Of a stretch of DNA of 64,000 bases, positions 50,591 to 64,000 are shown in pieces. Position 1 is the stretch's first letter. Each line of letters begins with the position of its first letter. The position numbers and the translations under genes were made by a program. The DNA lies in assembly GCF_947488025.1 (NCBI RefSeq), contig NZ_CANKYS010000008.1:124001-188000 (forward strand). The letters run 5' to 3'. The notes beneath the pieces were generated by a model. It ran no database searches. It was given only the letters and a program-made list of their open reading frames with translations, and was not told the DNA's origin. The stretch is from an uncultured Nocardioides sp. (lineage in GTDB: Bacteria; Actinomycetota; Actinomycetes; Propionibacteriales; Nocardioidaceae).

Positions 50591-53500
50591 TCAGGCGAGC
50601 GACGTCCTGACCAGGTGGTCGAGGCCCAGCCGGGCCAGGTCGGCGAGCACGGCATCGAGCCCGAGCACCAGGTCGGCCGCTCCCCGATCGGGGGCGGTGC
50701 CGCACAGCAGCCCGACCGGAACCATCTCCCACGAGCAGACCACCGCTCCCGGGTGGACATCCGGATCGGGCGGATCGATGGCGGACAGACCGGGCCGACC
50801 CGCAGGGCGGACGCGGCTCGCGAGCAGTCGCACCGAGGCACCGGTGCCGTTGCCGGGGCCCACGCCGAGGACGAGCACCTCCTCCGACGTGGGTACGGCG
50901 TCGGGGCGCGCGAGGTCGACCCAGCCCCGCAGCGTCCCGGTCGAGGACTCGACGGCGTCCCCGCCCACGGGCTGCACGCCCGGACTGCCGTCGACCCGGA
51001 CCAGCGACCAGCCGGCTCCGGCACCGCGACTGCTGTCGGCGGCCACCACGTCGTGGACGTCGTACCAGGTGCCCGGGGTGACCAGCTCGCCGCGCCGGCT
51101 CGTCTTGGCATCGAACCGGCAGTGCCCGGCGGCCTCGGCGAGGCGTGCGCCCACCACGTCCGCGGTGAGGACGAGGTCGGCCGCAACGAGGACGCCGGCG
51201 CCCGCGACGGCGCCGTCGCAGTGGATGGTGCAGGTCTGCGCCTCGACCTGGCCGAGCGCGTGGAGCCACGGTTGGACCGGCCGCCCTGCCGCCTCGACCC
51301 GCTGCACGACGTCGTCGAGCATCCCGGACACCGGGGTGTCGAGGCCCACGGCCTCGGCCGTCCGCAGGAGCTGGAGGTCGCCCGGGGCCACCTCGAGGCA
51401 GTGGGCCACCAGCTCCAGCAGCAACCCCCGCTCCTCGAGGACGTCCACCAGCTGCCGGACGCTCTCCTCGAAGTCCGTCGTGCTGCCCGGCACCAGCGCG
51501 TCGAGGCTCTGGTGCAGGCGGATCCGGAGGAACCACCGCAACGACTCGGGAGAGAAGACGGACACCAACGCCTGCGCGAGCATCCGGTGCACCTCGGGCG
51601 GGAGCGGCACGCGCGAGACGACGTCGTCCGTCACCCCCTCGTCGCGGCGCTCGGTCCTGCGGCTGAGGCTCGGGTCGGTCGTCATCACCCGAGCCAGGGC
51701 GGTCATGAGCCCGGTCAGGTCCACCCCGGGCATGCAGAGCACCTCCCGCAGGGTGGCCCGGACCGAGGCCTCGTCCGCCACGAGGAGGAACTCGCTCCAG
51801 GCGGCGGTGAGCGACCGCGCCTGCGGCAGCCGCAACCTGCGGGTGAGCATGCCCGGCTGCTCCTCCTCGCGCGCCGAGGCTGCCAGGTCGATGGTGGCCA
51901 GCTCCGCGGCGACGACCCGCACCGGTCCCTCGACGTGGCGCGGGATGCCGGCGAGCGTGACCACGCGTGCCATCCGCTCCACGTCCCGGGCGTCGTCGGC
52001 GGCCAGGACGCTGCCCACGGCACGGACCAAGGACGGGTCGTCGTGCAGCACGGCGTCCGGGAGGTCGTCCATGGTGGTCCTGGCCGCGCGAGCGAGGTCG
52101 ACGGCCGGGGCACCCGCTCCCCTGGCGAGGACGGCGCCGAGCGCCGTGCAACCCAGCCGCACCAGCCGGTCGGACGCGAGCTCGTCCACCTGCTCGAGCC
52201 GGCGCAGCACGCCTCCCGCCGCGTCCCACAGCCCCGCAGAGATGACGAGCTCGGCCTGCATCCGCGCGAGCCGGTAGGTCTGGTCGTTGACCCCTGCGAG
52301 CAGCGCGTCGTCAGCCGTCGTCGCGAGGAGGGACACCGCCTGCTCGACGTGTCCCACCGCGAAGAGGGCCTCGGCGGTCAGGGCCGTCAGGGGACTCCGC
52401 GGCGAGCGCTCCTGGCGGGTCCCGAGCGCGGCGAGCGCGTCGCGTGGCCGATCGTCGTCGAGCATCGCACGCACCTTGCGCGCGGTGATCTCCTCGTAGT
52501 CCTCCAGACGCGCGGCGTCCGTCGCCAGAGCGTCCAGGGCGACCCCGAGCCGTGAGGCGAGGAAGGCCCGTCGGCTGCCGTCGAGCTCGTCCATGGCGGA
52601 CTCGAGGTGGGGTTGCACACCGTCCATCCACCGGTTGTCGACCACTCCGAGGTCGTCGCCGGACTTGAGGCGGTGGTAGATCTCCTCGGCCCGCTCACGG
52701 GCCACCGGAGGTCGGCCGGCGTAGTAGGCGACAGCGGCCCGGTGCAGGGTCTGCGAGAGCGCCGGCTGGTCGGCCTCGAGCAGCGGCAGCATCACCCGCC
52801 GCAGCTCCACCCGGTGGACCAGCGCGCCGTCGGACTCGGGCGTGACCAGCGAGGTCTCGCGCTCGAGCTCGTCGAACACGTCCTGCGCCTGCTCGGCGGT
52901 GGCGACGCCGAGCTCGCACGGCCTGGCGAGCACGTTGAGCACGATGTCCGGCGTGATCCGCCGCAGCACCAGACCGGCGCCGGCCAGCCGGCGGACCCGC
53001 TCGTCCTGCACGTGCCCCAGCACCCGGTCGTAGAGCCGGCGCTGGATCACCGCACCGTCGAGCTGCAGGAGCCAGTCGGTGGCCCGCGAGAACCAGCTGG
53101 ACAGCGGCCGGTGGGCGTCCGGGGCCGACGCCGCCAGCTTGAGCGACACGGGGTCGCCGCCGTAGCGGTGCGCGATCCGCTCGGCGACCTTGCGGTCCTC
53201 CACGCCCAGCTTCACGAGGAGCTCGCACGCGGACCCGGGGTCGAGCGCCGTGACCTCCAGCTGCTGGGCGTACGTGCGGGTGATCCCCGCCCGTCCGGCG
53301 ACGACCACCCGGGCCTCGGCGGGCAGCTTCTCCACCAGCAGGTCGATCAGCCGCAGCACCGTGGCAACCTCCTCGCTGCTGCGGTACTGCACGACCTCGA
53401 AGGTGTCGAGCACGAGGACGAAGCCGCGTCGGGCCAGGTCGAGCTGCTGGAGCATCGTGACCAGCTCGTCGACCGCGCGCGGCAGTGAGAAGTGCCGCTT

Positions 53501-54475
53501 GCCGCGCGGCACCTCCAGCACCCGGGCCCAGTCCTCCCGGATCCGGTTGCAGCTCGCCTTCGCGTCGGGGAACTCGACGCCGATCTGCGCGAGCATCTCG
53601 ATGAGGAGGATGAGGCACTGGTTGGTGGCCTCCACGGACGGCCGGTCGAAGTCCAGGTAGGCGAACGGGACCCGCGACGCGGCGGGGGTGTCCCGGCCGC
53701 CGAGGTCGAGCAGGAACCTCGCGACCAGCGTCGACTTGCCGATCCCACCGGGCCCGTAGAGCACCAGCAGGCGGGTGTCCGCCTGCTGGTGCGCTGTCGT
53801 ACGGCTGCGCCCGCGCCTCGTCCCGGCAGGCGCCGTCTGCTCACGACCCAGGAAGTCGGCGATGACCGCGAGCTCGGCCTTCCGACCCACGAACTCGGGT
53901 CCGGCGAGGAGCTCGAGCGGCTCGAGCAGGGTCAGCAGGTCGATGCGGTCACGCAGCCGGACCAGGTCCGGCAGGTCCTCGAAACCGGCGTCGCGCAGCC
54001 AGTCGCACACGAGCGCCAGCGAGTGGAGGTCCGGCAGCGACTGGTCCGTGATCTCGACCACCCCGCCGGTCACCAGGACCCGGATCAGCTGGTGGAGCCG
54101 GTCCCCCGGTGATGCCGTGTTCGCGGCAAGCGCCCGACGCAGGCGGCCCGACTCCCGCAGGTGGCGGAGCACCGCGACGCGGCGGTTGGAGGAGATGCTC
54201 AGCGCGTCCTCGCCCTGGTCGTCGACGACGTGGATCGCCGATCGGAGCAGGGCGTCCAGGCCCGCCCCGTCCGCCGACCTCGTCGTCGGGCGGAGGGTGT
54301 CAGGGTCGAACCAGCCGAGGACGGCCGCTGCCTCCTCGTGGCCACCGACCCGAGCCGGTGGTGCAGCGGCCGGAGGCGCAGTGACCGGCGACGGCTCGAC
54401 CTCGGCCGTGGCGGCCTCCCTCAGCGCCATCGCCTGGGCGACGAGCTCCTCGATGCTGATCTCGGTGTCGCCCAT
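50591..54475 (-). CDS. STAND/NB-ARC ATPase with EAD1-like and inactive trypsin-like domains
   Basis: A 1294-residue protein. Residues 1-190 are a helical N-terminus. FVGRKAELAVIADFLG (195-210) and Walker A GPGGIGKST (241-249) begin an NB-ARC-type NTPase, with Walker B FVLVLDTFEVVQ. A long helical (TPR-like) array follows. Residues about 961-1042 look like an EAD1 domain (FSPESLRWFLRIRLHQ, VRQLVDVLEERGLLLELVAHCLEVAPGD). The last roughly 213 residues resemble a trypsin fold but lack the His (VLTADVV), the Asp and the Ser, so it is a pseudoprotease. I read it as the NTP-driven sensor/hub of a conflict system. It starts two bases after the upstream stop. Confidence 0.85.
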   Translation of the reverse strand: MGDTEISIEELVAQAMALREAATAEVEPSPVTAPPAAAPPARVGGHEEAAAVLGWFDPDTLRPTTRSADGAGLDALLRSAIHVVDDQGEDALSISSNRRVAVLRHLRESGRLRRALAANTASPGDRLHQLIRVLVTGGVVEITDQSLPDLHSLALVCDWLRDAGFEDLPDLVRLRDRIDLLTLLEPLELLAGPEFVGRKAELAVIADFLGREQTAPAGTRRGRSRTTAHQQADTRLLVLYGPGGIGKSTLVARFLLDLGGRDTPAASRVPFAYLDFDRPSVEATNQCLILLIEMLAQIGVEFPDAKASCNRIREDWARVLEVPRGKRHFSLPRAVDELVTMLQQLDLARRGFVLVLDTFEVVQYRSSEEVATVLRLIDLLVEKLPAEARVVVAGRAGITRTYAQQLEVTALDPGSACELLVKLGVEDRKVAERIAHRYGGDPVSLKLAASAPDAHRPLSSWFSRATDWLLQLDGAVIQRRLYDRVLGHVQDERVRRLAGAGLVLRRITPDIVLNVLARPCELGVATAEQAQDVFDELERETSLVTPESDGALVHRVELRRVMLPLLEADQPALSQTLHRAAVAYYAGRPPVARERAEEIYHRLKSGDDLGVVDNRWMDGVQPHLESAMDELDGSRRAFLASRLGVALDALATDAARLEDYEEITARKVRAMLDDDRPRDALAALGTRQERSPRSPLTALTAEALFAVGHVEQAVSLLATTADDALLAGVNDQTYRLARMQAELVISAGLWDAAGGVLRRLEQVDELASDRLVRLGCTALGAVLARGAGAPAVDLARAARTTMDDLPDAVLHDDPSLVRAVGSVLAADDARDVERMARVVTLAGIPRHVEGPVRVVAAELATIDLAASAREEEQPGMLTRRLRLPQARSLTAAWSEFLLVADEASVRATLREVLCMPGVDLTGLMTALARVMTTDPSLSRRTERRDEGVTDDVVSRVPLPPEVHRMLAQALVSVFSPESLRWFLRIRLHQSLDALVPGSTTDFEESVRQLVDVLEERGLLLELVAHCLEVAPGDLQLLRTAEAVGLDTPVSGMLDDVVQRVEAAGRPVQPWLHALGQVEAQTCTIHCDGAVAGAGVLVAADLVLTADVVGARLAEAAGHCRFDAKTSRRGELVTPGTWYDVHDVVAADSSRGAGAGWSLVRVDGSPGVQPVGGDAVESSTGTLRGWVDLARPDAVPTSEEVLVLGVGPGNGTGASVRLLASRVRPAGRPGLSAIDPPDPDVHPGAVVCSWEMVPVGLLCGTAPDRGAADLVLGLDAVLADLARLGLDHLVRTSLA

Positions 54476-54477
54476 CG

Positions 54478-55833
54478 TCAGGTCCCCGGCAGCTCGCGGG
54501 CGACCCGGTCCGCCATCTCGTCCAGCCATCCGGGCGCGGCCGTCTTGCGCCTGCCGAGGACCTCGGTGGTCTTGCGGGCGATCTCCGCCGGATCGATCTC
54601 GACCTGGGACTCCTTGAAGGCCTTGGCGAAGAACTCCATGAGGTGCTGGACCGTGAGCTCCCCCGTCTGGTCGAGCAGCCTGGCCTGGCGCAGCCCCACC
54701 GGGAGGTCCTCGGTGAAGCCCACCAGCACCAGTCGCAGGTTGGGCAGGACCATCCCGACGCTCCGGCTCAACCGGCTGACCAGGTCGAGCGACGCCTGGG
54801 TCAGCCGGACCTTGTGGAAGGCGTCGAGGACCAGGAAGGTCATCGGACGGTCGTCGCGCTGGGCCCGCTCCTCGAAGCAGTCCTTGAAGTCGACGATCCA
54901 CGCCGACCACTGCTTGTCGGGCGGCTTGTCCGGCACGTCGACGTCGTCGTAGTCGAGTGCCCTGACGACCTCGATCGCCAGGTCTCGTGGGGTGAGCGAA
55001 CGACGCGGACCGACCCGTCGCGAGGCCTCCTCGAGGTCGATCTCCGCGATCTCGAACGAGCAGACCTCGCGCATGTGGTAGATCAACCGCAGGCTGTGGC
55101 TCATGCCCGATCGTGCTTCCCCGCGCACGACCAGGACGCGGTTGCCGTCTGCCGGGATCATCCGCTCCATCGACGCGCGCAGCGGCTTCCGGTCGATCAT
55201 GAAGAAGCCGCCCGTCAGTCGGCACAGCTGGAGCGCCGGACGCCACGACTCCGGGTCCACCTCGGGCGCGGCGAGCGGCGCCAACCGGGCCTCGAGCTCC
55301 CGCAACCTCGGGTCGCCCGGGGCGCGCGACGACGCCTCGATGACCAACGGGAGCAGCCACCCGTCCGTCGCGGCGGCCTCGACGCAGCGGCGGAGGTTGT
55401 CGGTCGTGGTGCGGCTCTCCTCCCAGTACGCCGCAGCGCGGGCGTCCACCTCGACGAGCATCGACCTCAGCTCCTCGCTGTCGTCGATCGCCTCGAGCAC
55501 CGCCTCGACGATCCCGGTCTGCACGTCCTCGCCCGGACGACGCGTCGGCCGTACGTGGCGCGCGGGGCCGACCAGGGCGTCGTACTCCACGTCCTGCAGG
55601 AGCCGGTTGGTCGGGACCAGGCCCTGGGCCTCGGCGATGAGGTCGGCGACTTCGTCCTGCACCTCGGCGTGCTCGATGAAGGCGTGCACCGTGGTGCCGA
55701 GCGTGGCTCCGTCACCGACCACGTCGGTGCGCTCCCAGCCGAGGCGACGCGCGAGCCGGTCGAACTCCTCGAGCCGGAGGGCGTCGCCGAGCGCCCGGGA
55801 CAGCTGACCGTAGGCGGGGCCGTCGAGCCTCAT
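54478..55833 (-). CDS. Tandem EAD1-like domains with a degenerate P-loop ATPase
   Basis: A 451-residue protein. Residues 1-82 and about 104-185 are two similar helical domains of the EAD1 type, each ending in a pattern like LVPTNRLL or APGDPRLREL. From about 205 a P-loop domain follows, whose Walker A is RGEARSGMSHSL (237-248), with Met where Lys is expected, then Walker B TFLVLDAFHK (332-341). It is therefore likely to bind but perhaps not hydrolyse nucleotide. It overlaps the EAD1-trypsin gene by four bases and stands just before the STAND gene. I see it as an adaptor between effector and hub. Confidence 0.75.
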   Translation of the reverse strand: MRLDGPAYGQLSRALGDALRLEEFDRLARRLGWERTDVVGDGATLGTTVHAFIEHAEVQDEVADLIAEAQGLVPTNRLLQDVEYDALVGPARHVRPTRRPGEDVQTGIVEAVLEAIDDSEELRSMLVEVDARAAAYWEESRTTTDNLRRCVEAAATDGWLLPLVIEASSRAPGDPRLRELEARLAPLAAPEVDPESWRPALQLCRLTGGFFMIDRKPLRASMERMIPADGNRVLVVRGEARSGMSHSLRLIYHMREVCSFEIAEIDLEEASRRVGPRRSLTPRDLAIEVVRALDYDDVDVPDKPPDKQWSAWIVDFKDCFEERAQRDDRPMTFLVLDAFHKVRLTQASLDLVSRLSRSVGMVLPNLRLVLVGFTEDLPVGLRQARLLDQTGELTVQHLMEFFAKAFKESQVEIDPAEIARKTTEVLGRRKTAAPGWLDEMADRVARELPGT

Positions 55834-56966
55834 GGCTCCTCCCCTCCGAACACCCAGCCCAGGTCGTGGCGTTCGAGGTCGCGCTTGATCGTGGCGATCG
55901 GGATGCACTGGTTGTAGTCGGCCGCGGTGACCTGTCGGTCGCAGGGCAGCCACACGTCGTCGCGCCCGGGCTGTCCGGCGTGGTGCAGCGCCACGAGCTC
56001 CTGCTGGGCATCGAGGACCGGGGAGCCCGACGAGCCCGGCATGGTGTTGACCCGGTGGTGCACCCGCAGCCGGTCGCCGATGACGCGCTGGACACCGTCG
56101 AACGCGAAGTCGAACGAGATCGGGTCGTGGCACGGGTGCTGGACGACCATCAGGTAGGAGCCGAGCGGGAAGTCGTGCTCCTCCGCCCGCGGCTCGACCC
56201 AGCCGCGGCGCGCGCCGACCGGGTCGTCGGAGGTCCCCTCGGCGCCGAGGGGGCGCTCCAGCCGGAGCACGGCGTAGTCCAGCTCGTCGGGGGCGGGCTC
56301 CGTGCCCTCGACGTAGTCCGCCAGGTCGAAGCTGCTGTAGGGCGAGGTGTGGACCAGCCAGTCCGCGGCCAGCCGGGCCTCGGTCCCGGGGTCGCGCACG
56401 ATCCCGTCACGATCGCGCTTGTAGTCGAAGCGGAGCACGATCTTCTCGGGCGGGAACGCGCCGTCGATGGCCTTCTTGACCACGTGGTGGTTGGTGAGGA
56501 CGCTGCTGGGCCCGATGAGGAAGCCCGTCCCGCCGGCGGTGCCGAGCTCGACGGCGCACACGCGGCGGGTGTACTCCAGGAGCCGCACCGAGAACCGGCC
56601 CAGGTCGGCGATGCCGCGTCGGGGGTCGACCATCCGCTCGAGCCGGAGCCGCGTCTGCGTGAGGACCTGCGCCTCCGGGACCGCGGCCGTGACCGGCGCG
56701 GCGCCCGCGCCCGTCGCCGCGGCCAGCTCCATCAGCCGCACGTTGTCGGGGTTGATGGCGCGGGCTGCCGTCACGAGCGCGGTGACGCGGTCCCGGGTCT
56801 CGGCGTAGCTGATCACCTCGCCGATCACGCCGACCAGGGCCCCGGGCGCGATCTCGCCCGGCGGGATGCCTGCGCGCCGGAGCATGCGCATGACCCCGTC
56901 GACGTCGTCGAAGGCGTCGAGCAACGCCTCCTCCAGGAGGACGTACTCGTCACTCGTGAGGCGCAC
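55830..56966 (-). CDS. EAD1-trypsin-like serine protease
   Basis: A 378-residue protein. Residues 1-85 form an EAD1-type helical domain (EEALLDAFDDVDGVMRMLRRAGIP, INPDNVRLMELAA). A complete trypsin-like protease follows: H161 in SVLTNHHVVKK, D230 in ELDYAVLRLE and S313 in MPGSSGSPVLD. The triad is intact and no signal peptide is present, so it should act in the cytoplasm. In the EAD concept, its adaptor domain docks the effector protease onto a sensor carrying the same EAD type. GTG 56966 starts 14 bases past the small gene's stop. Confidence 0.85.
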   Translation of the reverse strand: MRLTSDEYVLLEEALLDAFDDVDGVMRMLRRAGIPPGEIAPGALVGVIGEVISYAETRDRVTALVTAARAINPDNVRLMELAAATGAGAAPVTAAVPEAQVLTQTRLRLERMVDPRRGIADLGRFSVRLLEYTRRVCAVELGTAGGTGFLIGPSSVLTNHHVVKKAIDGAFPPEKIVLRFDYKRDRDGIVRDPGTEARLAADWLVHTSPYSSFDLADYVEGTEPAPDELDYAVLRLERPLGAEGTSDDPVGARRGWVEPRAEEHDFPLGSYLMVVQHPCHDPISFDFAFDGVQRVIGDRLRVHHRVNTMPGSSGSPVLDAQQELVALHHAGQPGRDDVWLPCDRQVTAADYNQCIPIATIKRDLERHDLGWVFGGEEP

Positions 56967-56980
56967 CTGGTCCCACCCCC

Positions 56981-57160
56981 TCAGAAGAGCGACGTCCCGC
57001 CGAGCTGGATGCTGGTCGCACCGGCCGTCGACTCGGCCTCGGCCGCCGCACGCGACCCGCTGCGGTCCGGGACGTGGATCTTCCCGGTCACCTCTAGAGG
57101 AGCGACGAACGTCACCGGTGATACGTGCGCCGCCGCACGGCGTACGCCCCTCGGGGTCAT
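56981..57160 (-). CDS. 59-residue protein of the protease operon
   Basis: A small protein from ATG 57160, which overlaps the stop of the double-protease gene (ATGA). The N-terminus is basic (MTPRGVRRAAAHV), the middle beta-like (SPVTFVAPLEVTGKIHV) and the C-terminus Ser/Thr/Gly-rich (AGATSIQLGGTSLF). No family is recognised. It might be a substrate, inhibitor or peptide signal. Confidence 0.6.
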   Translation of the reverse strand: MTPRGVRRAAAHVSPVTFVAPLEVTGKIHVPDRSGSRAAAEAESTAGATSIQLGGTSLF

Positions 57161-59949
57161 GGCACGAACCTCGCGATCGCCGGCGCGACCTGCTCCATCG
57201 CGTGGGCGTAGTTCGCCCGGAGCCAGTTGCCGGCGAAGTGCAGGCCGGCGACGTCCAGGTCGTCGTCGAAGGCGAGCACGCACGACCCGCTGTTTCCTCC
57301 CAGGGACGTCGCGTCGTGGGTGAACACCCAGCCCCGAGGGCTGTCGGGGAGCGCGTCCCGCGACGTCATGACGAGCCCCGGGCTCAGGTAGCGCACGCCG
57401 TACTGCATGTTGAACAGCTCCTGCAGCCGGCGTACGACGTCCATGCGGCGCCGGCCGTCCTCGTCGCTGGGCAGCACGGTGGGCATCGCCGGGTACCCGA
57501 CGACGAACAGCCTCGAGGCAGCGGGCGCGATCGGCTGCGTGGACAGCGTGAGCGGAGGTGGCAGCCCGACGCCGTCGAGGCTGGTCTGCTCGACGCGCAG
57601 GAGGGCGAGGTCGAGGTGGGCGAGGTCGACCCGCCCCTCGATCGGGTCGGGCCCGGCGAAGACGACCTCCAGGACCCGGAACCTGCGGGTGGTGTCGGCC
57701 GCCGTCGGCGAGAAGTTGATCGACGGCGCCCCGGTCAGCACCCACCCGGACGGGTCGGACCTGCGCGGGGTCGGGAAGGCGAGCAGCTCGACGACGTGCC
57801 GGTTGGTCATCACGAGCCCGTCACCGACGACGAAGCCCGTGCCTGCATGGACGCCGGGAGCGGAGTCGATGCGCCCGACCGAGCGTTGCCTCACCGCGAA
57901 GGTGGGGTGGAGCACGACCGGACCCTGCCACTCACCGAGCTCCGGGTCGTCGGGGTCGACGCCGTCGTCGCCCAGCCGGAGGGCGGGTCGACCCTCGAGC
58001 TGCACCAGCGCCTCCAGCGCGGTCTCCGAGCCGGGGTCGCGCGGGACCTCCTCGCCCTCGCACAGGCACCCGATGACCCGCTCGCTGTCCCGGAGGAGCT
58101 GGTCGTGGAGGGGGGTGAGCCTCTGCGTGTCGACCTCGTCGGACTCGCCCCGGACCCGTCGGACCTTGTCCTCGAGCAGCCCGAGCACGGACGCGGGATC
58201 CGCACGCAGCGACTCCCGCGCTGCCTCGGGAGTGAGGTCGGCCGCGGACTCGAGGCCGCTGCGGCGGCCGGCGACGAGCACGACCGGGTCGACGGAGGCG
58301 ATCCGGTCGGCGCGCAGCTCGGGCCTCGTCGGCCCGGGGGCGGGTCGGCCGCTCGGTGGGGTCGTCACGCCGATGGCCGCCTCGAGCTGTGGACTCATCG
58401 GGTGCCGCGACAGGCGGGACTCGACGTCGGCCTCCTCGGGAAGGTCGGCGGCGATCCGCGCGTCCTCGAACATCACCGAGCTGAGCTCGAGCTGCAGCTG
58501 CGGCTGCGCGGCGGCTTCCGCGAGCAGTGCTGCCCCGTCCGGCCCCATCGCATCGACGAGCAGGTCCATCGCGTCGGCGGTGGTGCTCCGGGAGGCAGCC
58601 TCGGGTGCCGCGGCGACCGGGCCGTCGAGCGGGGCGTGCAGGACCGCCCGGGCATCGACGATCCCCGCGCCGAACTCGTCGGTGTCCCACCCGGCCGGGA
58701 CGCGCACGGTCGAGGTCAGCACGTCACGGAAGAGTGCCTGGACCGTTGTCTGCCGAGCCGCGGCCGCCGCCAGCACCGTCGCCCGGCCGTGGTGCGAGAG
58801 CCACAGCGCTGCCACGCCGGCGGTGAGCGCGACGGCGAAGGAGGTGCCCTGGCCCCCTGCCACCGCACTGTTCCCCGGTCCGGCCACGGCCTTCCACACC
58901 TTCTCCGCGGGGGCGGTGACGTCGACCGCGGACCCGTGGCACGACCCGCGCCACGTGCCGTCGTCGACGTTGCTCCCGGCCACCGCGATGACGTCGTCGT
59001 AGCGGGCGGGGTAGACGACGAGGTCGACGCAGTTGCCCGCGGCGGCCAGGACGATGATCCCCTCGTCGATGGCCCGCTTGATGGCCTGGCGCATCGCACG
59101 ACTCGGGGTGCCGCCGAGGCTCATGGTCACGACGTGGCAGCCACGTTGCCGGGCGTGGTCGATCGCCCTCGCCACCGCGCTGCCGTTGAACGCGAGCACC
59201 ACGGACTCGACGCAGCGGATGGGCACCAGCGTGGCCTCGGGTGCGGGACCGAGCACCTCGCCGCGCGACCCGCTCGCCGCCACGCTGGCGGTCCCGGTCC
59301 CGTGGCCGGGGTTGCCGCCCCCGGACAGGGGATCGACGGCGTCCGCGGCGCCGGTGAGGACGTTGAAGCCGTCCCTGATGGTGACGTCGGAGAGCTCGAC
59401 GTGCGGGGTGATCCCGGTGTCCGGCTGGCCGATCCGGATGCCGGCCCCCCGGGCCGGGCTGTCATCCCAGGCGTCCAGCACCCCGGCGCGCGCGAGGGCC
59501 CACGTGCGGTCGGCCGGAGCGGCACCGGCCACGAAGCAGGTGCCCTGGAAGCGGTCCTTGACCACGGACTCGTCGACCGCGCCGGGGGCGACCGGTTCCT
59601 GGTAGAACTCGCTGCCGATGTCGGGCTCGACGGTGACCGCACCGAGGAGCTCGCGCAGCTCGTGGGCGATCGAGAACAACGTGCCGTTGTCCATCGTGCG
59701 TTCCAGCCCGGGGAGCTGCAGGACGTGGAAGACACCGAGCTCGTCGTCCGGGCGCGCGTCGTCGAACAGGGCGAAGAGCTCGACGTCCTCGATGCCGAGG
59801 AGCCTCCGGACCTCGGCGCGGGCGGCGTCGACGTCGACCGCGTCGGCGTACTCCACCACGAAGCGCAGCGTCCGCGCGTCCAGTCCGGCGGTCTCGTCAT
59901 GTCCGTCCCGGTGAGCGGCGAGCGCTCTCAACAGCTCGATGTCAGGCAC
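57157..59949 (-). CDS. Subtilisin-trypsin double protease
   Basis: A 930-residue protein with two proteases in one chain. Residues about 165-440 are an S8 subtilase: D177 in IGQPDTGITPH, H216 in GHGTGTASVA, oxyanion N306 in LAAAGNCVD and S370 in GQGTSFAVAL. Residues 440-680 are a linker. From about 700 comes a trypsin-like domain: H718 in VMTNRHVVELL, D780 in LDLALLRV and S887 in SLGGNSGSCVLA. Both triads look complete. There is no signal peptide, so it should be cytoplasmic. Residues 1-160 have strand-helix segments like a prodomain. GTG 59949 overlaps the ATP-grasp stop by eight bases. Confidence 0.88.
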   Translation of the reverse strand: MPDIELLRALAAHRDGHDETAGLDARTLRFVVEYADAVDVDAARAEVRRLLGIEDVELFALFDDARPDDELGVFHVLQLPGLERTMDNGTLFSIAHELRELLGAVTVEPDIGSEFYQEPVAPGAVDESVVKDRFQGTCFVAGAAPADRTWALARAGVLDAWDDSPARGAGIRIGQPDTGITPHVELSDVTIRDGFNVLTGAADAVDPLSGGGNPGHGTGTASVAASGSRGEVLGPAPEATLVPIRCVESVVLAFNGSAVARAIDHARQRGCHVVTMSLGGTPSRAMRQAIKRAIDEGIIVLAAAGNCVDLVVYPARYDDVIAVAGSNVDDGTWRGSCHGSAVDVTAPAEKVWKAVAGPGNSAVAGGQGTSFAVALTAGVAALWLSHHGRATVLAAAAARQTTVQALFRDVLTSTVRVPAGWDTDEFGAGIVDARAVLHAPLDGPVAAAPEAASRSTTADAMDLLVDAMGPDGAALLAEAAAQPQLQLELSSVMFEDARIAADLPEEADVESRLSRHPMSPQLEAAIGVTTPPSGRPAPGPTRPELRADRIASVDPVVLVAGRRSGLESAADLTPEAARESLRADPASVLGLLEDKVRRVRGESDEVDTQRLTPLHDQLLRDSERVIGCLCEGEEVPRDPGSETALEALVQLEGRPALRLGDDGVDPDDPELGEWQGPVVLHPTFAVRQRSVGRIDSAPGVHAGTGFVVGDGLVMTNRHVVELLAFPTPRRSDPSGWVLTGAPSINFSPTAADTTRRFRVLEVVFAGPDPIEGRVDLAHLDLALLRVEQTSLDGVGLPPPLTLSTQPIAPAASRLFVVGYPAMPTVLPSDEDGRRRMDVVRRLQELFNMQYGVRYLSPGLVMTSRDALPDSPRGWVFTHDATSLGGNSGSCVLAFDDDLDVAGLHFAGNWLRANYAHAMEQVAPAIARFVP

Positions 59950-60994
59950 GGCGTGGTCCCCCGATCTGTGTGGTGCGCCGCTCCCGGTGGAACGGCTGCT
60001 GATGGGGCGGCGTGCTCGTCCCCGCTCGACGCCCCGTTCGTGCGGTCATCTTCTCGTCCAGGTACCCGAGCAGCCGCGCCAGCGCCGAGGAGATGGGCTG
60101 GCCCGTCGCGAGCTCGATGAACAGCCACTGCCCGGCCGGGTTGACCTCGAGGAAGACGTAGTCGCCGTCGGGGGCCCTGCGGAGGTCGATGGCCCCGTAG
60201 CGCAGCCCGAGGCGCCGCATCATCCGCACCAGTCGCCCTTCGACCGGCTCCGGCAGCGGGTGCACCTCGATCGGCGCGTTCTCGGTGTCGACGCGGAAGT
60301 CGAGGTCGTACGACGACTCGCCCGACCGGATCTCGGCGGAGAACACCTCATCGCCCACGATGGTGACCCGGATGTCGAAGCCTCCGGGGATGCACTCCTG
60401 GAAGATCACGGGCGCGAGTCGGACCCGGTCGAACAGCTCGCGGTGCTCGTCGCGCACCAGCCGGGTCTCGCGCCAGGTCACCTCGCTCGCGCTGAAGGAC
60501 TTGAAGACCACGGAGCCCGGCTCGGACTCGATGAAGCCGAGGGCGCGCGCGGGGTCGTTGGTCATGCAGGTGCGCGGCACCCGCAGGCCGAGCTCGGACG
60601 CGACGCGGAGCTGCCACATCTTGCGCGAGGCCGCCTCGTCGCGGTCGGGGTCGTTGACCCACTCCGCGTCGAGGCAGTGCCACAGCCCGGCGACCATCGC
60701 CGCGCACTCGCCGCGCGCGAACGCGCGGTCGTGGGCGTCGGTGATGGCACCGTCCAGCACGAAGGGCTGCGGTCGGCGCCACCACATGGCATGCACGTCG
60801 CGCAGGTCGACCGGCACCCCGTCGTGCTCCCACCAGCCGTGCCAGCCCGCGCCGGGCACCTCGCTCGTCGTCAGCCCCACCTGCACGGGCAGCGACGAGG
60901 TGTCGAGGACCAGGTGCGCGGACCCTGCCTGCTCCAGGTGACGTCGTACGTGGACGGCGTGCAGGTCGTCGAGGTGGGACACGATGCCGATCAC
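59942..60994 (-). CDS. MvdD-like ATP-grasp ligase (graspetide synthetase type)
   Basis: A 350-residue ATP-grasp enzyme. N-terminal signs are MWWRRPQPF (70-78), as in MvdC/MvdD peptide macrocyclases. Central ones are FKSFSASEVTW, VIFQECIPGGFDIRVTIVGDEVFSAEI and the metal site YGAIDLRRAPDGDYVFLEVNPAGQWLFIE with E283 and N285. Such enzymes form ester or amide links between Thr/Ser/Lys and Asp/Glu side chains of a precursor peptide. It is not RimK or a D-Ala ligase by N-terminal domain. Its GTG start overlaps the stop of the repeat-tailed protease (GTGA), so the two are coupled. Confidence 0.85.
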   Translation of the reverse strand: MIGIVSHLDDLHAVHVRRHLEQAGSAHLVLDTSSLPVQVGLTTSEVPGAGWHGWWEHDGVPVDLRDVHAMWWRRPQPFVLDGAITDAHDRAFARGECAAMVAGLWHCLDAEWVNDPDRDEAASRKMWQLRVASELGLRVPRTCMTNDPARALGFIESEPGSVVFKSFSASEVTWRETRLVRDEHRELFDRVRLAPVIFQECIPGGFDIRVTIVGDEVFSAEIRSGESSYDLDFRVDTENAPIEVHPLPEPVEGRLVRMMRRLGLRYGAIDLRRAPDGDYVFLEVNPAGQWLFIELATGQPISSALARLLGYLDEKMTARTGRRAGTSTPPHQQPFHRERRTTQIGGPRRA

Positions 60995-62433
60995 ATGTCG
61001 CCCCCACTGCTCAGCAGGTCGTGGAGGGCCACCAGCGACTCGACCAGCGCCGAACCCGCCTCGATGGCGGCCTCGAGCTCACCGAGGACCGCGTCGGCGA
61101 CCGGCTCCGACGCGTTCTCCTGGGCGATCCCGAGGTGCGGCGCGGCCTGGACGAAGGGCCGCACACCGCCGAGGGCTCGGCCGACCGCCGGGTCGAGCCA
61201 CGGGTCGTCGAGGTCGACGATCACCTCCCGGCGCGTCAGGTTGGGGTCGTCCGCGCCGCCGGGCGTGCCGAGGACGTCTCCCGCCAACGGCGTGCCGCCG
61301 GCGTCGCGCGCAAGCGGGGTGCCCCTCACGTCCCGCGCCAGGGGTGTCCCGCGCACGTCGCGCGCGAGCAACGTGTCGCGGATGTCGGCCGCCAGCCGGG
61401 TCCCGACCCGGTCCCGGAAGCCGGTGTCGGCGGCGAGCAGGGTGCCGGTGACGTCGTCGGCGAGCTGGGTGGTGATGCTGTCCGCTGCGCGGGCGGTCTG
61501 CGAGCTCGGGGTGGTCGACCGCAGCGTGGGCGACGCCGCGATGATCGCCGCGATTGCCACGCCCGAGTTGCTGCCGGTCCCTGAGCTGGTGCAGCCACCG
61601 TTCGTGTGTACGCCGACGACGCGCCCGGTCGGACCGTGCAGGATGCCCGACCCCGAGTTGCCGCCGAGGGTGTCGATGTCGTTGTAGCGGATCACCGACC
61701 CCGACAGCGTCGTCGCCGGGCCGGCCTCGATCCGCTTCGGCTGGCCGAGGGGGTGCCCGATGATGGCCAGCATGTCGCCCACGGCCACGTCCGTGGTCGC
61801 GAACTCGCTCCAGCCGTAGCGGGAGCCGGGGCTGCCGCCGATCCGGCACAGCGCCATGTCGAGGCCACCGAGGCGGTACTCGATGAGCTGCGTGATCGGG
61901 TAGGACTGCTCGGCGCGGAGCACGTTGTTCTCGTCGACCTGGTACTCGAAGTTCAGGTGCATGCTGGTGGCCGCCTGCTGCGGCGAGATCGCGTTTGACG
62001 TGCCGTTCTGGCGCGGGACCGTCCAGCCGTTGATGTCGGTGTCGAACAGGTGCCCGCAGGTGAGGAACAGGTCGGGACCGATCATCGTCCCGCTCCCCCA
62101 CCGCACCCCGTTGACGTCTCCCGGGTTGGTGAAGACGGTGGCGAGGTCGTCGTTCCACTGCACCTGGGCGACCGGTAGCTGGTGGTGGTCGACGAACGCC
62201 ACCGTCACGCCCAGGGTGCCGTCGTAGAGCTCCACCTGCTGGGAGTCGTCGGCGACCCCGCAGATCGACTCGAGCATCGTGCTGTAGTCGGGACCCGTCC
62301 CCTCGAGCGCCGACTCCGGCAGCGTCAGCTCGTCGAGGTGGGGGACGTAGAGGGGGTCGTCCAGCCCTGCGTTGACCGGCTTGCCTGGGGACCGCTTGGA
62401 GGTCGTCTTCCTCCCGGACTTCGTTGCTGCCAT
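60991..62433 (-). CDS. Trypsin-like protease with 9-residue Asp/Thr repeat tail
   Basis: A 480-residue protein. Residues about 55-300 form a trypsin-like domain with H128 in LTCGHLFDTD, D192 in GLDMALCRI and S260 in LGGNSGSGILHG, so the triad is present. Residues 325-391 are a tail of short repeats ARDVRGTPL, each with one Asp and one Thr. The C-terminus is acidic and helical. Basic residues 1-20 (KSGRKTTSKRSPGK) resemble neither a signal nor a transmembrane segment. It is the first gene of the operon with GAGGAGAG before the ATG. I suggest the tail as the substrate of the ATP-grasp gene that overlaps it. Confidence 0.85.
   Translation of the reverse strand: MAATKSGRKTTSKRSPGKPVNAGLDDPLYVPHLDELTLPESALEGTGPDYSTMLESICGVADDSQQVELYDGTLGVTVAFVDHHQLPVAQVQWNDDLATVFTNPGDVNGVRWGSGTMIGPDLFLTCGHLFDTDINGWTVPRQNGTSNAISPQQAATSMHLNFEYQVDENNVLRAEQSYPITQLIEYRLGGLDMALCRIGGSPGSRYGWSEFATTDVAVGDMLAIIGHPLGQPKRIEAGPATTLSGSVIRYNDIDTLGGNSGSGILHGPTGRVVGVHTNGGCTSSGTGSNSGVAIAAIIAASPTLRSTTPSSQTARAADSITTQLADDVTGTLLAADTGFRDRVGTRLAADIRDTLLARDVRGTPLARDVRGTPLARDAGGTPLAGDVLGTPGGADDPNLTRREVIVDLDDPWLDPAVGRALGGVRPFVQAAPHLGIAQENASEPVADAVLGELEAAIEAGSALVESLVALHDLLSSGGDM
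61261..61461 (-). repeat. 9-residue repeat tract in the protease tail
   Basis: Residues 325-391 encode units ADDVTGTLL, then AADIRDTLL, ARDVRGTPL (twice), ARDAGGTPL and AGDVLGTP, with one longer variant unit. Consensus A[AR]D[VI]xGT[PL]L. The repeats are partly visible at the DNA level as a 27-base period. Confidence 0.85.
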
Positions 62434-62766
62434 GTCTGTCTCTCCTCGTGGGGCGGTGGCTCCACCACCGCGAGTGTCAGGAGTCAGCGGCTCCGCGCCT
62501 GGGCTCCGGGCCGCAGCCCGGACGCGCCGGCCGTGCCGGCGGAACAGCGCGCCTCGACCCAGCGGGCCGGTTCGCCGTCCATGTCTTCCGAGGGTGGGGC
62601 AGTACGCGTCGGAACGAGTTCACGTGACGCCTCCGAGGGTCGCGTCCACGGCCGCGTGGTCCGGCCCACTCCTCAATGTGCTCCCGGTGGGGGCAGGACG
62701 CCAGACCGGACCAGACCACCTCGCAACCCGGCCCTCACCACCGGGGCCGTGCCGGCGGGGGTGCGA
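62434..62766. other. 333-base intergenic region before the protease operon
   Basis: No gene is credible here. It must hold the promoter of the seven-gene operon. No strong -10/-35 pair stands out. Near 62729-62749 a hairpin, CGGCCC / GGGCCG with a 9-base loop, probably terminates the M1 peptidase gene. Confidence 0.6.
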
Positions 62767-64000
62767 TCACCAGCTCGTGGGCTTCTCCGGGGCGAACAGC
62801 CAGGTGTGGAAGAACGCGGAGAGGTCCTGCCCGGACTCCTCCTCGAAGACCGCGATGAAGTCGTCGGTCGTCCCCGTCGCGTCGTCGTAGCGCTGCAGCC
62901 ACTCGCGCGTCGCCGCGAAGAACGCCTCGTCGCCGACCTTCGCGCGCAGTGCGTGGAGCGTGCCGGCACCTCGGTTGTAGACCTGCGTCGCGAAGAGCCC
63001 GAGCGGGCCGGGATCACCGATCGGCAGTGACCAGTACCCCGACGTGCGGGCCGGGGCGTACCAGGTGTCGAACGCCTGTTGCGCGGTGGTGCCGCCGTTC
63101 TCCTCGGCCCACAGCCAGCTCGCGTAGGTCGCCCAGCCCTCGTTGAGCCAGATGTGCTGCCACGTGTCGGGGCTGACGGCGTTGCCGAGCCACTGGTGTG
63201 CGAGCTCGTGCGCGACGGTGCCCTGGGATGCCTGTCTCGAGTAGACCGGACGGGTCTGGGTCTCCAACGCATATCCCACGCTGTCGTCGTCGACGATCGA
63301 GCCGAAGGAGGCGAAGGGATAGGCACCGAACCGCGACTCGAAGAAGTCGATCATCCGCGGCTGCAACGCCAGGCTGGCGTCGGTGGTGGCGAGCTGACCA
63401 GTGGTGAGCTTGCTGTCGACGAAGTCGTGGATGGGCACCCCGCTCGCCGACGTGGTCACCGGTCGCTGGACGAAGTCACCGACGGACGCCGTCGTCAGGT
63501 AGCTGGCCTGCTGGTCAGGGGCCTCCCAGGACCACGTCGTCGTACCGTCCGCCGTCACCGGTTCCCCGGCCGGCAGGCCATTGGCCACCGCGGTCTTGCC
63601 GGCAGGCACCGTGATCTCGAAGCTGTAGGTCGCCTTGTCCCGCTGGTGGTCGCTGACCGGGTACCACGTCATCGACCCCTCCGGCTCGCTGACCACCATC
63701 GCGCCGTCGCGCGTGGTGACCCAGCCGTAGAGCGCGCCCTCGACGTCGGTCGGGCGCGTGGTCGCGCCGCCGTAGGTGACGACCACCCGCGCCGACTGCC
63801 CGGCCTTGAGCTTGGGACGCGGCTGGACCGTCAGCTCCCAGCTGCGGCTCGCGTCGTCCTGCACGTGCCAGTACGCCGCTCCGTCGACCTCCACCCCGTC
63901 GGCCGGGGGCTCGATGCCGGTGGCGCGCTTGCCGTTGACGGTGAGCGCCGAGACCGTCATGCCGCGCAGGTCGAGGTTGAAGCGGTCGAGGTCCTGGCGC
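62767..64000 (-). CDS. M1 family metallopeptidase (5' end outside window)
   Basis: A zinc aminopeptidase cut by the window edge; the frame stays open to base 64000 (RQDLDRFNLDLRGMTVSALTVNG). The zinc site is TVAHELAHQWLGNAVSPDTWQHIWLNEGWATY (HEXXH-x18-E). Upstream is the M1 N-terminal beta domain with VSEPEGSMTWYPVSDHQRDKATYSFEITVPAG. The usual GAMEN exopeptidase motif is replaced by a SVGYALETQTRPVY-like segment, common in secreted actinobacterial members. It is likely secreted, but the signal peptide is not in view. It is separated from the protease operon by 333 bases and probably unrelated. Confidence 0.92.
   Translation of the reverse strand, partial: RQDLDRFNLDLRGMTVSALTVNGKRATGIEPPADGVEVDGAAYWHVQDDASRSWELTVQPRPKLKAGQSARVVVTYGGATTRPTDVEGALYGWVTTRDGAMVVSEPEGSMTWYPVSDHQRDKATYSFEITVPAGKTAVANGLPAGEPVTADGTTTWSWEAPDQQASYLTTASVGDFVQRPVTTSASGVPIHDFVDSKLTTGQLATTDASLALQPRMIDFFESRFGAYPFASFGSIVDDDSVGYALETQTRPVYSRQASQGTVAHELAHQWLGNAVSPDTWQHIWLNEGWATYASWLWAEENGGTTAQQAFDTWYAPARTSGYWSLPIGDPGPLGLFATQVYNRGAGTLHALRAKVGDEAFFAATREWLQRYDDATGTTDDFIAVFEEESGQDLSAFFHTWLFAPEKPTSW

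Follow-up and report, generated by a model that had tools for sequence, protein, structure and literature searches.

What does an ATP-grasp ligase modify when its gene begins inside the stop codon of a protease gene? The question is raised by two adjacent genes on the minus strand of a 64,000-nucleotide stretch of DNA from an uncultured Nocardioides sp. (assembly GCF_947488025.1, contig NZ_CANKYS010000008.1, positions 124,001 to 188,000; this whole stretch is referred to below as the window), which encode a trypsin-like protease with a repetitive C-terminal tail containing Asp and Thr and, immediately downstream, the ligase. An initial annotation of the window had proposed that the tail is the substrate of the ligase. 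On the comparative evidence given below, we consider this proposal very probably correct, and it is likely that the pair forms a two-gene system in which an enzyme bears its own graspetide-like substrate as a C-terminal tail and would be decorated in cis with omega-ester or amide rings.

A tailed protease and its overlapping ligase gene

The ligase gene starts, as the initial annotation had stated, inside the stop of the protease gene (a GTG at 60994 overlapping the TGA, in ATGTGA). On its profile matches, the ligase is a member of the microviridin/graspetide superfamily (MvdC/MvdD/SAV_5884 kind): it contains the MvdD pre-ATP-grasp domain (PF21068, ATPgraspMvdD; 35.6 bits, passing the cut-off of 27), and its relatives in the PDB (5ig8, with E = 1.9e-37, 5ig9, 7m4s, 7mgv and 7drm) are ATP-grasp ligases. 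The best NCBIfam model is TIGR04187 (GRASP_SAV_5884; E = 9.9e-70), for which the score of 235 bits lies below the cut-off of 350; the ligase is therefore a relative, rather than a member, of that named subfamily. The earlier label 'MvdD type' is loose, with 164.7 bits against a cut-off of 475 for the MvdD equivalog TIGR04184 and a score on the MvdC model that is below both that of TIGR04187 and the MvdC cut-off.

In the protease, the His, Asp and Ser motifs of the catalytic domain are intact, and active-site motifs are present in all 13 trypsin-type members of the family described below. The tail contains seven D-x3-T nonads at residues 325-392 (ADDVTGTLL, FRDRVGTRL, AADIRDTLL, ARDVRGTPL twice, ARDAGGTPL and AGDVLGTPG) and a weaker eighth unit (ADDPNLTRR). 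The underlying 27-base units have diverged at the DNA and codon level, so that the repeat is not a fresh DNA duplication. The window protease was the sole match at E = 1e-5 in a survey of 149 genomes of its family (1/149, the window's own genome).

Tail and ligase occur together

We scanned one genome for each of 84,980 species with three aligned ligases and retained the best 80 of 476 relatives, to which we added loci from Burkholderia stagnalis, the window, one further genome (L099) and second copies in Cellulomonas (L156 and L157). On a 73-row ligase tree, the 46 ligases with tailed partners lie on one side of a branch with a Shimodaira-Hasegawa-like approximate likelihood ratio (SH-aLRT) support of 95 (quick method). 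Two further loci, L021 and L044, are closely related to L020 and L043 and raise the 46 clade loci on the tree to 48. The gene just upstream of the ligase carries a repeat tail at 47 of these 48 loci (41 full-length proteins, L044, L099, L156, L157, the fragment L037 and the frame-broken copy L046); at the remaining one, L045, the contig ends right before the ligase. A ligase kept beside an enzyme that lacks the repeats, the case that would speak against the initial proposal, was thus absent from the clade, the locus cut by the contig end aside. Two Cellulomonas genomes each contain two tailed enzymes, every one of them paired with its own ligase. The second pairs in these genomes (L156 and L157) are astacin-like, with KKxxDD and PPKQLxDP repeats; the other pair in each is of the trypsin type. 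The B. stagnalis ligase, found in a plasmid search and 47.6% identical to that of the window, immediately follows an M43-type metalloprotease whose tail differs from that of the window and is built of D-x3-T-like units.

Outside the clade the pattern was not seen. Distant ligases make up 27 of the 73 tree rows, and their partners are, by eye, mostly small or unclear; no such tailed enzyme stands upstream of ligases L062 to L097 (except L064) in the stretches examined, and the partners of L049 and L060, the nearest outsiders within the first 44 rows of the scan, are not tailed enzymes. In three further phyla, ligases at E = 1e-60 were found in 7 of 121, 5 of 119 and 4 of 112 genomes, with a tail, by eye, only in the genomes at the centre of each search (for Chloroflexota, G552, the source of locus L029). 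Among viral contigs, 30 stretches matched a pattern and none was confirmed as a relative.

Relatives of the enzyme domains that lack the tail were found in plasmid records (three tail-less proteins read from ten records matching an M43 member, and six records matching the trypsin part). The three M43 relatives, from Rhizobium, Priestia and Nonomuraea, are 56-59% identical over the catalytic part and end shortly past the domain, at 362, 326 and 310 amino acids, respectively; the ligase profile detected no ligase in the 5.9 kb around each of them. Of the trypsin-part relatives, that from Sinorhizobium is tail-less (310 amino acids, with a hydrophobic, signal-like N-terminal stretch) and that from Geminocystis ends in another type of domain, which carries a murein endopeptidase annotation. 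Around these five loci and that of one further relative (six in all), the profile found no ligase within 5.7-7.7 kb, and it matched at the control locus.

Spacing and conservation of the paired residues

The initial annotation had taken the Asp and Thr within each nonad as ring partners. The repeats themselves stand: D is followed by T at +4 nine times in the 120-residue window tail, compared with 2.07 in shuffled sequences (p = 0.0001). The opposite order is slightly stronger, with T followed by D at +5 ten times, compared with 2.0 in shuffles (hexads such as TLLAAD, TRLAAD, TLLARD, TPLARD twice, TPLAGD and TPGGAD; nine if the overlapping T321/T322 pair is scored once). The tail frame reaches ten such pairs per 100 amino acids, whereas the best of the other 346 frames (of 347 in the window) reaches four, and none of 5,524 control frames from the fetched loci reaches six once frames with the tail pattern are set aside.

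We extended this test to 30 of the 41 full-length tailed proteins, whose tails vary in sequence between loci and are in many cases Pro-rich. Summed over the 30 tails, T or K is followed by D or E at +5 in 412 cases, compared with 107 in shuffles (p < 0.01 in 26 of 30), and +5 is the best offset in 18. In the 12 Thr-type tails, near copies among them, T to D at +5 occurs 152 times against 28 expected, whereas the D-to-T relation is split between offsets -4 (74) and -3 (56), against about 28 expected. Pairing within the D-x3-T unit, enriched yet weaker and more variable, was accordingly set aside: T-x4-D is preferred because its spacing is constant while the linkers between hexads vary in length. 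Judged by these statistics, the ring partners are most likely T(i) and D(i+5), across the borders of the nonads, and we hold T-x4-D pairing with good confidence.

The initial annotation had also expected Asp and Thr to be conserved together, and the alignments agree. In nine groups or pairs of relatives, the conservation of +5-paired residues is 0.90-1.00 and that of other tail residues 0.34-0.81, with unpaired residues of the same types ranging from 0.43 to 1.00. Between the window and L022, 43 of 43 paired cells are conserved, compared with 11 of 18 unpaired cells of the same types and 60 of 165 others. Two hexad acceptors, D327 and D336, are invariant in the 13 trypsin-type members, and D350 and D395 nearly so.

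Five unrelated enzymes carry the tail

Pfam was run on 44 proteins (the 41 full-length tailed proteins together with L049, L060 and L075). The host domains are M43 (15), Trypsin_2 (12), astacin (11), subtilase (one) and tyrosinase (one); a further tailed protein aligns with the trypsin group, giving 13 trypsin types, so that 40 of the 41 hosts are proteases. The tyrosinase (E = 3.1e-41; L029, 3431-4903, from a metagenome-assembled genome of Chloroflexia) has TLKFRDD repeats and the Pro-Phe module described below, and its gene ends 97 bases upstream of a clade ligase. With this host, we rejected the tail as a protease-specific element, as a general rule. Active-site motifs are present in 11 of 11 astacins and, by pattern, in 14 of 15 M43 members (the fifteenth reads HEIGHWLNLFH); for the subtilase, pattern matching recovered two of the three triad motifs. 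Mapped on the 73-row ligase tree, the domain types imply five changes, one more than the minimum of four, with at least two label changes for M43 and at least three for astacin imposed by the starred branches; tail plan and ligase have therefore stayed associated on all five unrelated enzymes, and exchanges have been few.

The tailed enzymes are about 420-600 residues long (the longer open reading frames [ORFs] L027 and L039 are probably overcalled). A simple hydropathy test found no hydrophobic N-terminal stretch in 40 of the 41, with L031 borderline; the start of L027 is overcalled, and L039 seems to be out of frame at its front, so that its true N-terminus was not judged. All 15 M43 members keep an R-x-C-(G/A)-T motif near the N-terminus. 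In mirolysin, an enzyme of the pappalysin family, a cysteine switch (Arg21-x-Cys23-Gly) gives latency (PMC6949598), and with this match the tail is not needed to explain latency in the M43 members.

A shared C-terminal module

Past the repeats, R425-P426-F427 is invariant in the 13 trypsin-type members. Among 42 upstream proteins selected by catalytic motif alone (the window, L011 and 40 others, including L044; L037, L045, L046, L049 and L060 gave no qualifying frame), all 42 have Pro-Phe in the last 110 residues, and the total of 55 Pro-Phe compares with 12.2 expected from composition. In 29 aligned tails, covering all five domain types, the residues after Pro-Phe form a run rich in hydrophobic side chains and a C-terminal stretch; the presence of Pro-Phe in 29 of 29 is by construction, because upstream ORFs were picked, and the alignment cut, at Pro-Phe. 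Several tails have a Gly/Pro-rich stretch ahead of the motif.

A profile of the module, with rows drawn from 25 of the 31 tailed genomes tested, matches in every one of the 31 (those without rows are L019, L023, L026, L041, L056 and G226). In the same 31 genomes it gives two strong extra matches, both of them the second tail-ligase pairs in Cellulomonas, and five further weak ones (E = 0.003-0.008). Surveys with this profile scored at most five or 13 candidates per genome, so that misses are possible; on this basis, it matches only the window's genome and G226 among 396 Actinomycetota, and only the genome at the centre of the search among 398 Pseudomonadota. The ligase of G226 falls in the tailed clade. 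Related ligases at E = 1e-40 or better occur in 23 of the 396 Actinomycetota; beyond those two genomes, the 21 remaining ones reach 3.4e-80 at best and are off the tree. Invariance and recurrence make it likely that the Pro-Phe module is the docking site of the ligase.

At three loci outside the clade (L074, L075 and L077), the ligase follows an ORF of about 179-266 amino acids with a Pro-Phe near its C-terminus and, by eye, no repeat core; these ORFs may represent an earlier version of the C-terminal recognition element.

An AlphaFold2 model of the tailed protease (13 sequences; mean predicted local distance difference test [pLDDT] 52) is fair in the protease core and disordered at residues 309-448 (pLDDT below 50). 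The helix that DSSP assigns at residues 443-477 begins with a ten-residue block of pLDDT 45, followed by 61, 74 and 61. Coordinates are collected in Table 1.

Table 1. Features of the tail-ligase pair (window positions)
Feature	Position	Strand	Basis
Tailed protease, 480 amino acids: trypsin-like domain, repeat tail and C-terminal module	60991..62433	minus	ORF call (ATG at 62433, stop at 60991-60993); Pfam Trypsin_2; 13-member alignment
Trypsin_2 catalytic domain, residues 113-275	61609..62097	minus	Pfam E = 1.3e-13; TCGH, LDMA and GNSGSG motifs
Predicted cross-link region, residues 313-395, ten T-x4-D hexads	61249..61497	minus	Spacing statistics; conservation
Pro-Phe motif RPFVQAAPH, residues 425-433, predicted ligase recognition motif	61135..61161	minus	Invariance in alignment
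C-terminal helix, residues 443-477	61003..61107	minus	AlphaFold2 model and DSSP
ATP-grasp ligase, 350 amino acids, predicted tail cyclase	59942..60994	minus	PF21068, TIGR04187 and PDB matches

What the tail may do

We infer the following scheme for ring chemistry, docking and the fate of the tail. The ligase would dock on the C-terminal module (Pro-Phe motif and helix), which would act as a naturally occurring 'follower' instead of a leader, activate each Asp side chain with ATP, and join it to the Thr hydroxyl five residues upstream; the products would be six-residue omega-ester rings (-18 Da each), in a row of up to nine or ten along the window tail. In sister systems, Lys would replace Thr and form amide rings with Asp or Glu. 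Among the fates weighed here, the modified tail would most likely remain in place, forming a compact extension that resists proteases; it would serve to protect, space or anchor an enzyme that digests itself and lacks an evident signal peptide. We favor this attached, cross-linked appendage over release of a free peptide or built-in inhibition because of the M43 latency motif, the tyrosinase host and the lack of a third gene recurring by eye; that the tail stays on the enzyme in a structural role is nevertheless a tentative preference.

The alternative that survives best is an ordinary ribosomally synthesized and post-translationally modified peptide (RiPP) in an unusual wrapper: the tail would be cyclized and then cut off, by the enzyme itself or another protease, to release a free graspetide, perhaps a protease inhibitor, with the protease domain as a built-in leader peptidase. 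The 40 proteases among 41 hosts and the Gly/Pro-rich stretch ahead of Pro-Phe in several tails would suit such a route, as would the fact that the graspetides characterized up to PMC8939145 are all, according to that paper, protease inhibitors; a tyrosinase host and one tail plan common to five unrelated domains do not, nor does the lack of a recurrent third gene after the ligase, as far as the ends of downstream ORFs showed by eye (no family or exporter search was made). We regard this route as unlikely.

A little less probable again is a built-in inhibitor, in which the cyclized tail would bend back onto the attached protease and block its activity until removal of the tail. Microviridins and plesiocin are potent serine protease inhibitors (PMC13097080), and enzymes of these kinds, with no evident signal peptide, would harm the cell interior; the same tail plan, however, occurs on metalloproteases, serine proteases and a tyrosinase, and the M43 members have a cysteine-switch-like motif of their own in 15 of 15 cases. 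The tyrosinase and the cysteine switch argue against a role as inhibitor only. That the ligase joins tails of different molecules into a covalent enzyme polymer, or couples the enzyme to another protein, is improbable: in its favor, the window tail ends in a predicted long helix, but a fixed +5 spacing in each tail is a requirement of short intramolecular rings and not of links between molecules. Least probable is a neutral low-complexity linker beside a ligase that modifies something else, for although the tails are repetitive, often Pro-rich and, in the window, predicted to be disordered, a coincidental adjacency fits poorly with 47 of 48 loci, the selective conservation of paired residues, the joint absence of tail and ligase in three M43 relatives, and the two genomes in which each of two tailed enzymes is paired with its own ligase.

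Several observations weigh against the reading of a ring-bearing, permanently attached tail. Four of the 30 tails are not significant at +5, and some peak at +4 (five), -3 (three), +1 (two), +3 and -1 (one each); in tails of period-four KD or KE repeats, +5 is indistinguishable from +1, and the tallies are not all independent because the Cellulomonas and Cryobacterium tails are near copies. In the Lys-type groups L054/L055 and L034/L039/L041, conservation is equally high for paired residues and for their unpaired counterparts of the same types, and in L038/L040/L042 the unpaired ones come close (0.92). Five changes on the tree, against a minimum of four, mean that exchange of enzyme domains is rare. 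The AlphaFold2 model is weak; ring formation and retention of the tail on the enzyme are predictions.

Genomic surroundings

Upstream of the tailed protease lies a gene for an M1-family aminopeptidase (62767-63999, minus strand). On the other side of the pair, past the ligase, genes of conflict type fill 50591-59949 on the minus strand in a series that resembles an EAD/STAND protease defense cluster; they encode an S8 and Trypsin_2 protein (PADLOC nacht model, E = 5.3e-30), an EAD1 and Trypsin_2 protein (55830-56966), a protein in which EAD1 occurs twice (54478-56133) and a NACHT/STAND-like nucleoside triphosphatase (about 50591-54472). The idea that the tail-ligase pair is part of an EAD system was rejected: EAD1 was found (E = 1e-6) in four of the 31 tailed genomes, and the window is the sole case in which it lies near the pair (STAND/NACHT genes were not searched for in the other tailed genomes). 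PADLOC left the ligase unmatched and gave the tailed protease only a weak RT-Protease match (E = 0.00013). We found no sigma-70-like promoter in window positions 55500-63000 and no Rfam match in 55500-63500. Among the plasmid loci, runs of lytic enzymes surround the tail-less relatives from Geminocystis (L162; amidase, murein endopeptidase and GH19) and from Priestia (L159; M28, M43 and S8).

Comparison with known systems

Borosins and BURP-domain cyclase peptides are cases in which a core is fused to a folded enzyme, namely the modifying enzyme itself; in the tailed enzymes, by contrast, the core is carried by an unrelated catalyst and the modifying ligase is separate. The closer likeness is to graspetides such as microviridin, plesiocin and fuscimiditide, in which a ligase of the MvdC/MvdD/SAV_5884 type stands beside a substrate with repeated pairs of nucleophile and carboxylate. 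In fuscimiditide, as proposed here, Thr is N-terminal to Asp (Thr7-Asp18 and Thr3-Asp22; PMC12291112), and the graspetide leader motif 'PFFARFL' or 'Phhx(1,2)h' (PMC8939145) recalls the Pro-Phe-hydrophobic motif of the tailed enzymes. The differences are that the substrate is the tail of an enzyme, that the motif is C-terminal to the core and that, by eye, only the ligase recurs as a neighbor; the order is enzyme, core and follower, in place of a small precursor with an N-terminal leader and a C-terminal core.

The Lys-type tails resemble corallotide (graspetide group 15), reportedly found only in Corallococcus, in which five Lys-x3-Asp motifs of a long, 22 kDa precursor are closed into KxxxD isopeptide rings by a TIGR04187 ligase; that precursor has an N-terminal helical region, is not described as an enzyme in the excerpt cited, and is later hydroxylated (PMC13097080).

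Earlier surveys had met ligases beside proteases. Graspetide group 32 has 'diverse families of neighboring proteases', for which maturation or resistance was proposed (PMC13097080; ACS Chem Biol, 2026), and ATP-grasp branches 7 and 8, for which no precursor was predicted, stand beside peptidases 'of several unrelated families' that were proposed to supply peptides cut from other cellular proteins (Makarova 2022, PMC8939145). These groups may overlap the clade described here; that the protease itself carries the core is not stated in the excerpts of either paper. Among the full-text literature matches listed (titles and abstract openings), we found no description of enzyme-borne graspetide tails; subscription papers (for example, Ramesh 2021) and supplements lie outside that scope and may hold an earlier mention. 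The missing substrate of such ligases may be the protease, which in this clade appears to be the precursor.

If this is true, graspetide chemistry extends from small peptides to the tails of folded, probably active enzymes, with a predicted rule of T-x4-D and K-x4-D/E, and modular ligases with ester- or amide-type tails would be available for stapling proteins. It is conceivable, and we suggest it with reserve, that this is a general bacterial device of permanently cross-linked enzyme tails, with one ligase clade, an interchangeable enzyme domain and a natural C-terminal recognition element, in which graspetide chemistry serves protein modification rather than natural-product synthesis. In engineered fuscimiditide, moving the leader to the C-terminal side of the core leaves it able to guide the ligase (PMC13003496); the C-terminal element that was engineered there would, if our reading is correct, occur in nature, and is apparently the natural state in the tailed enzymes.

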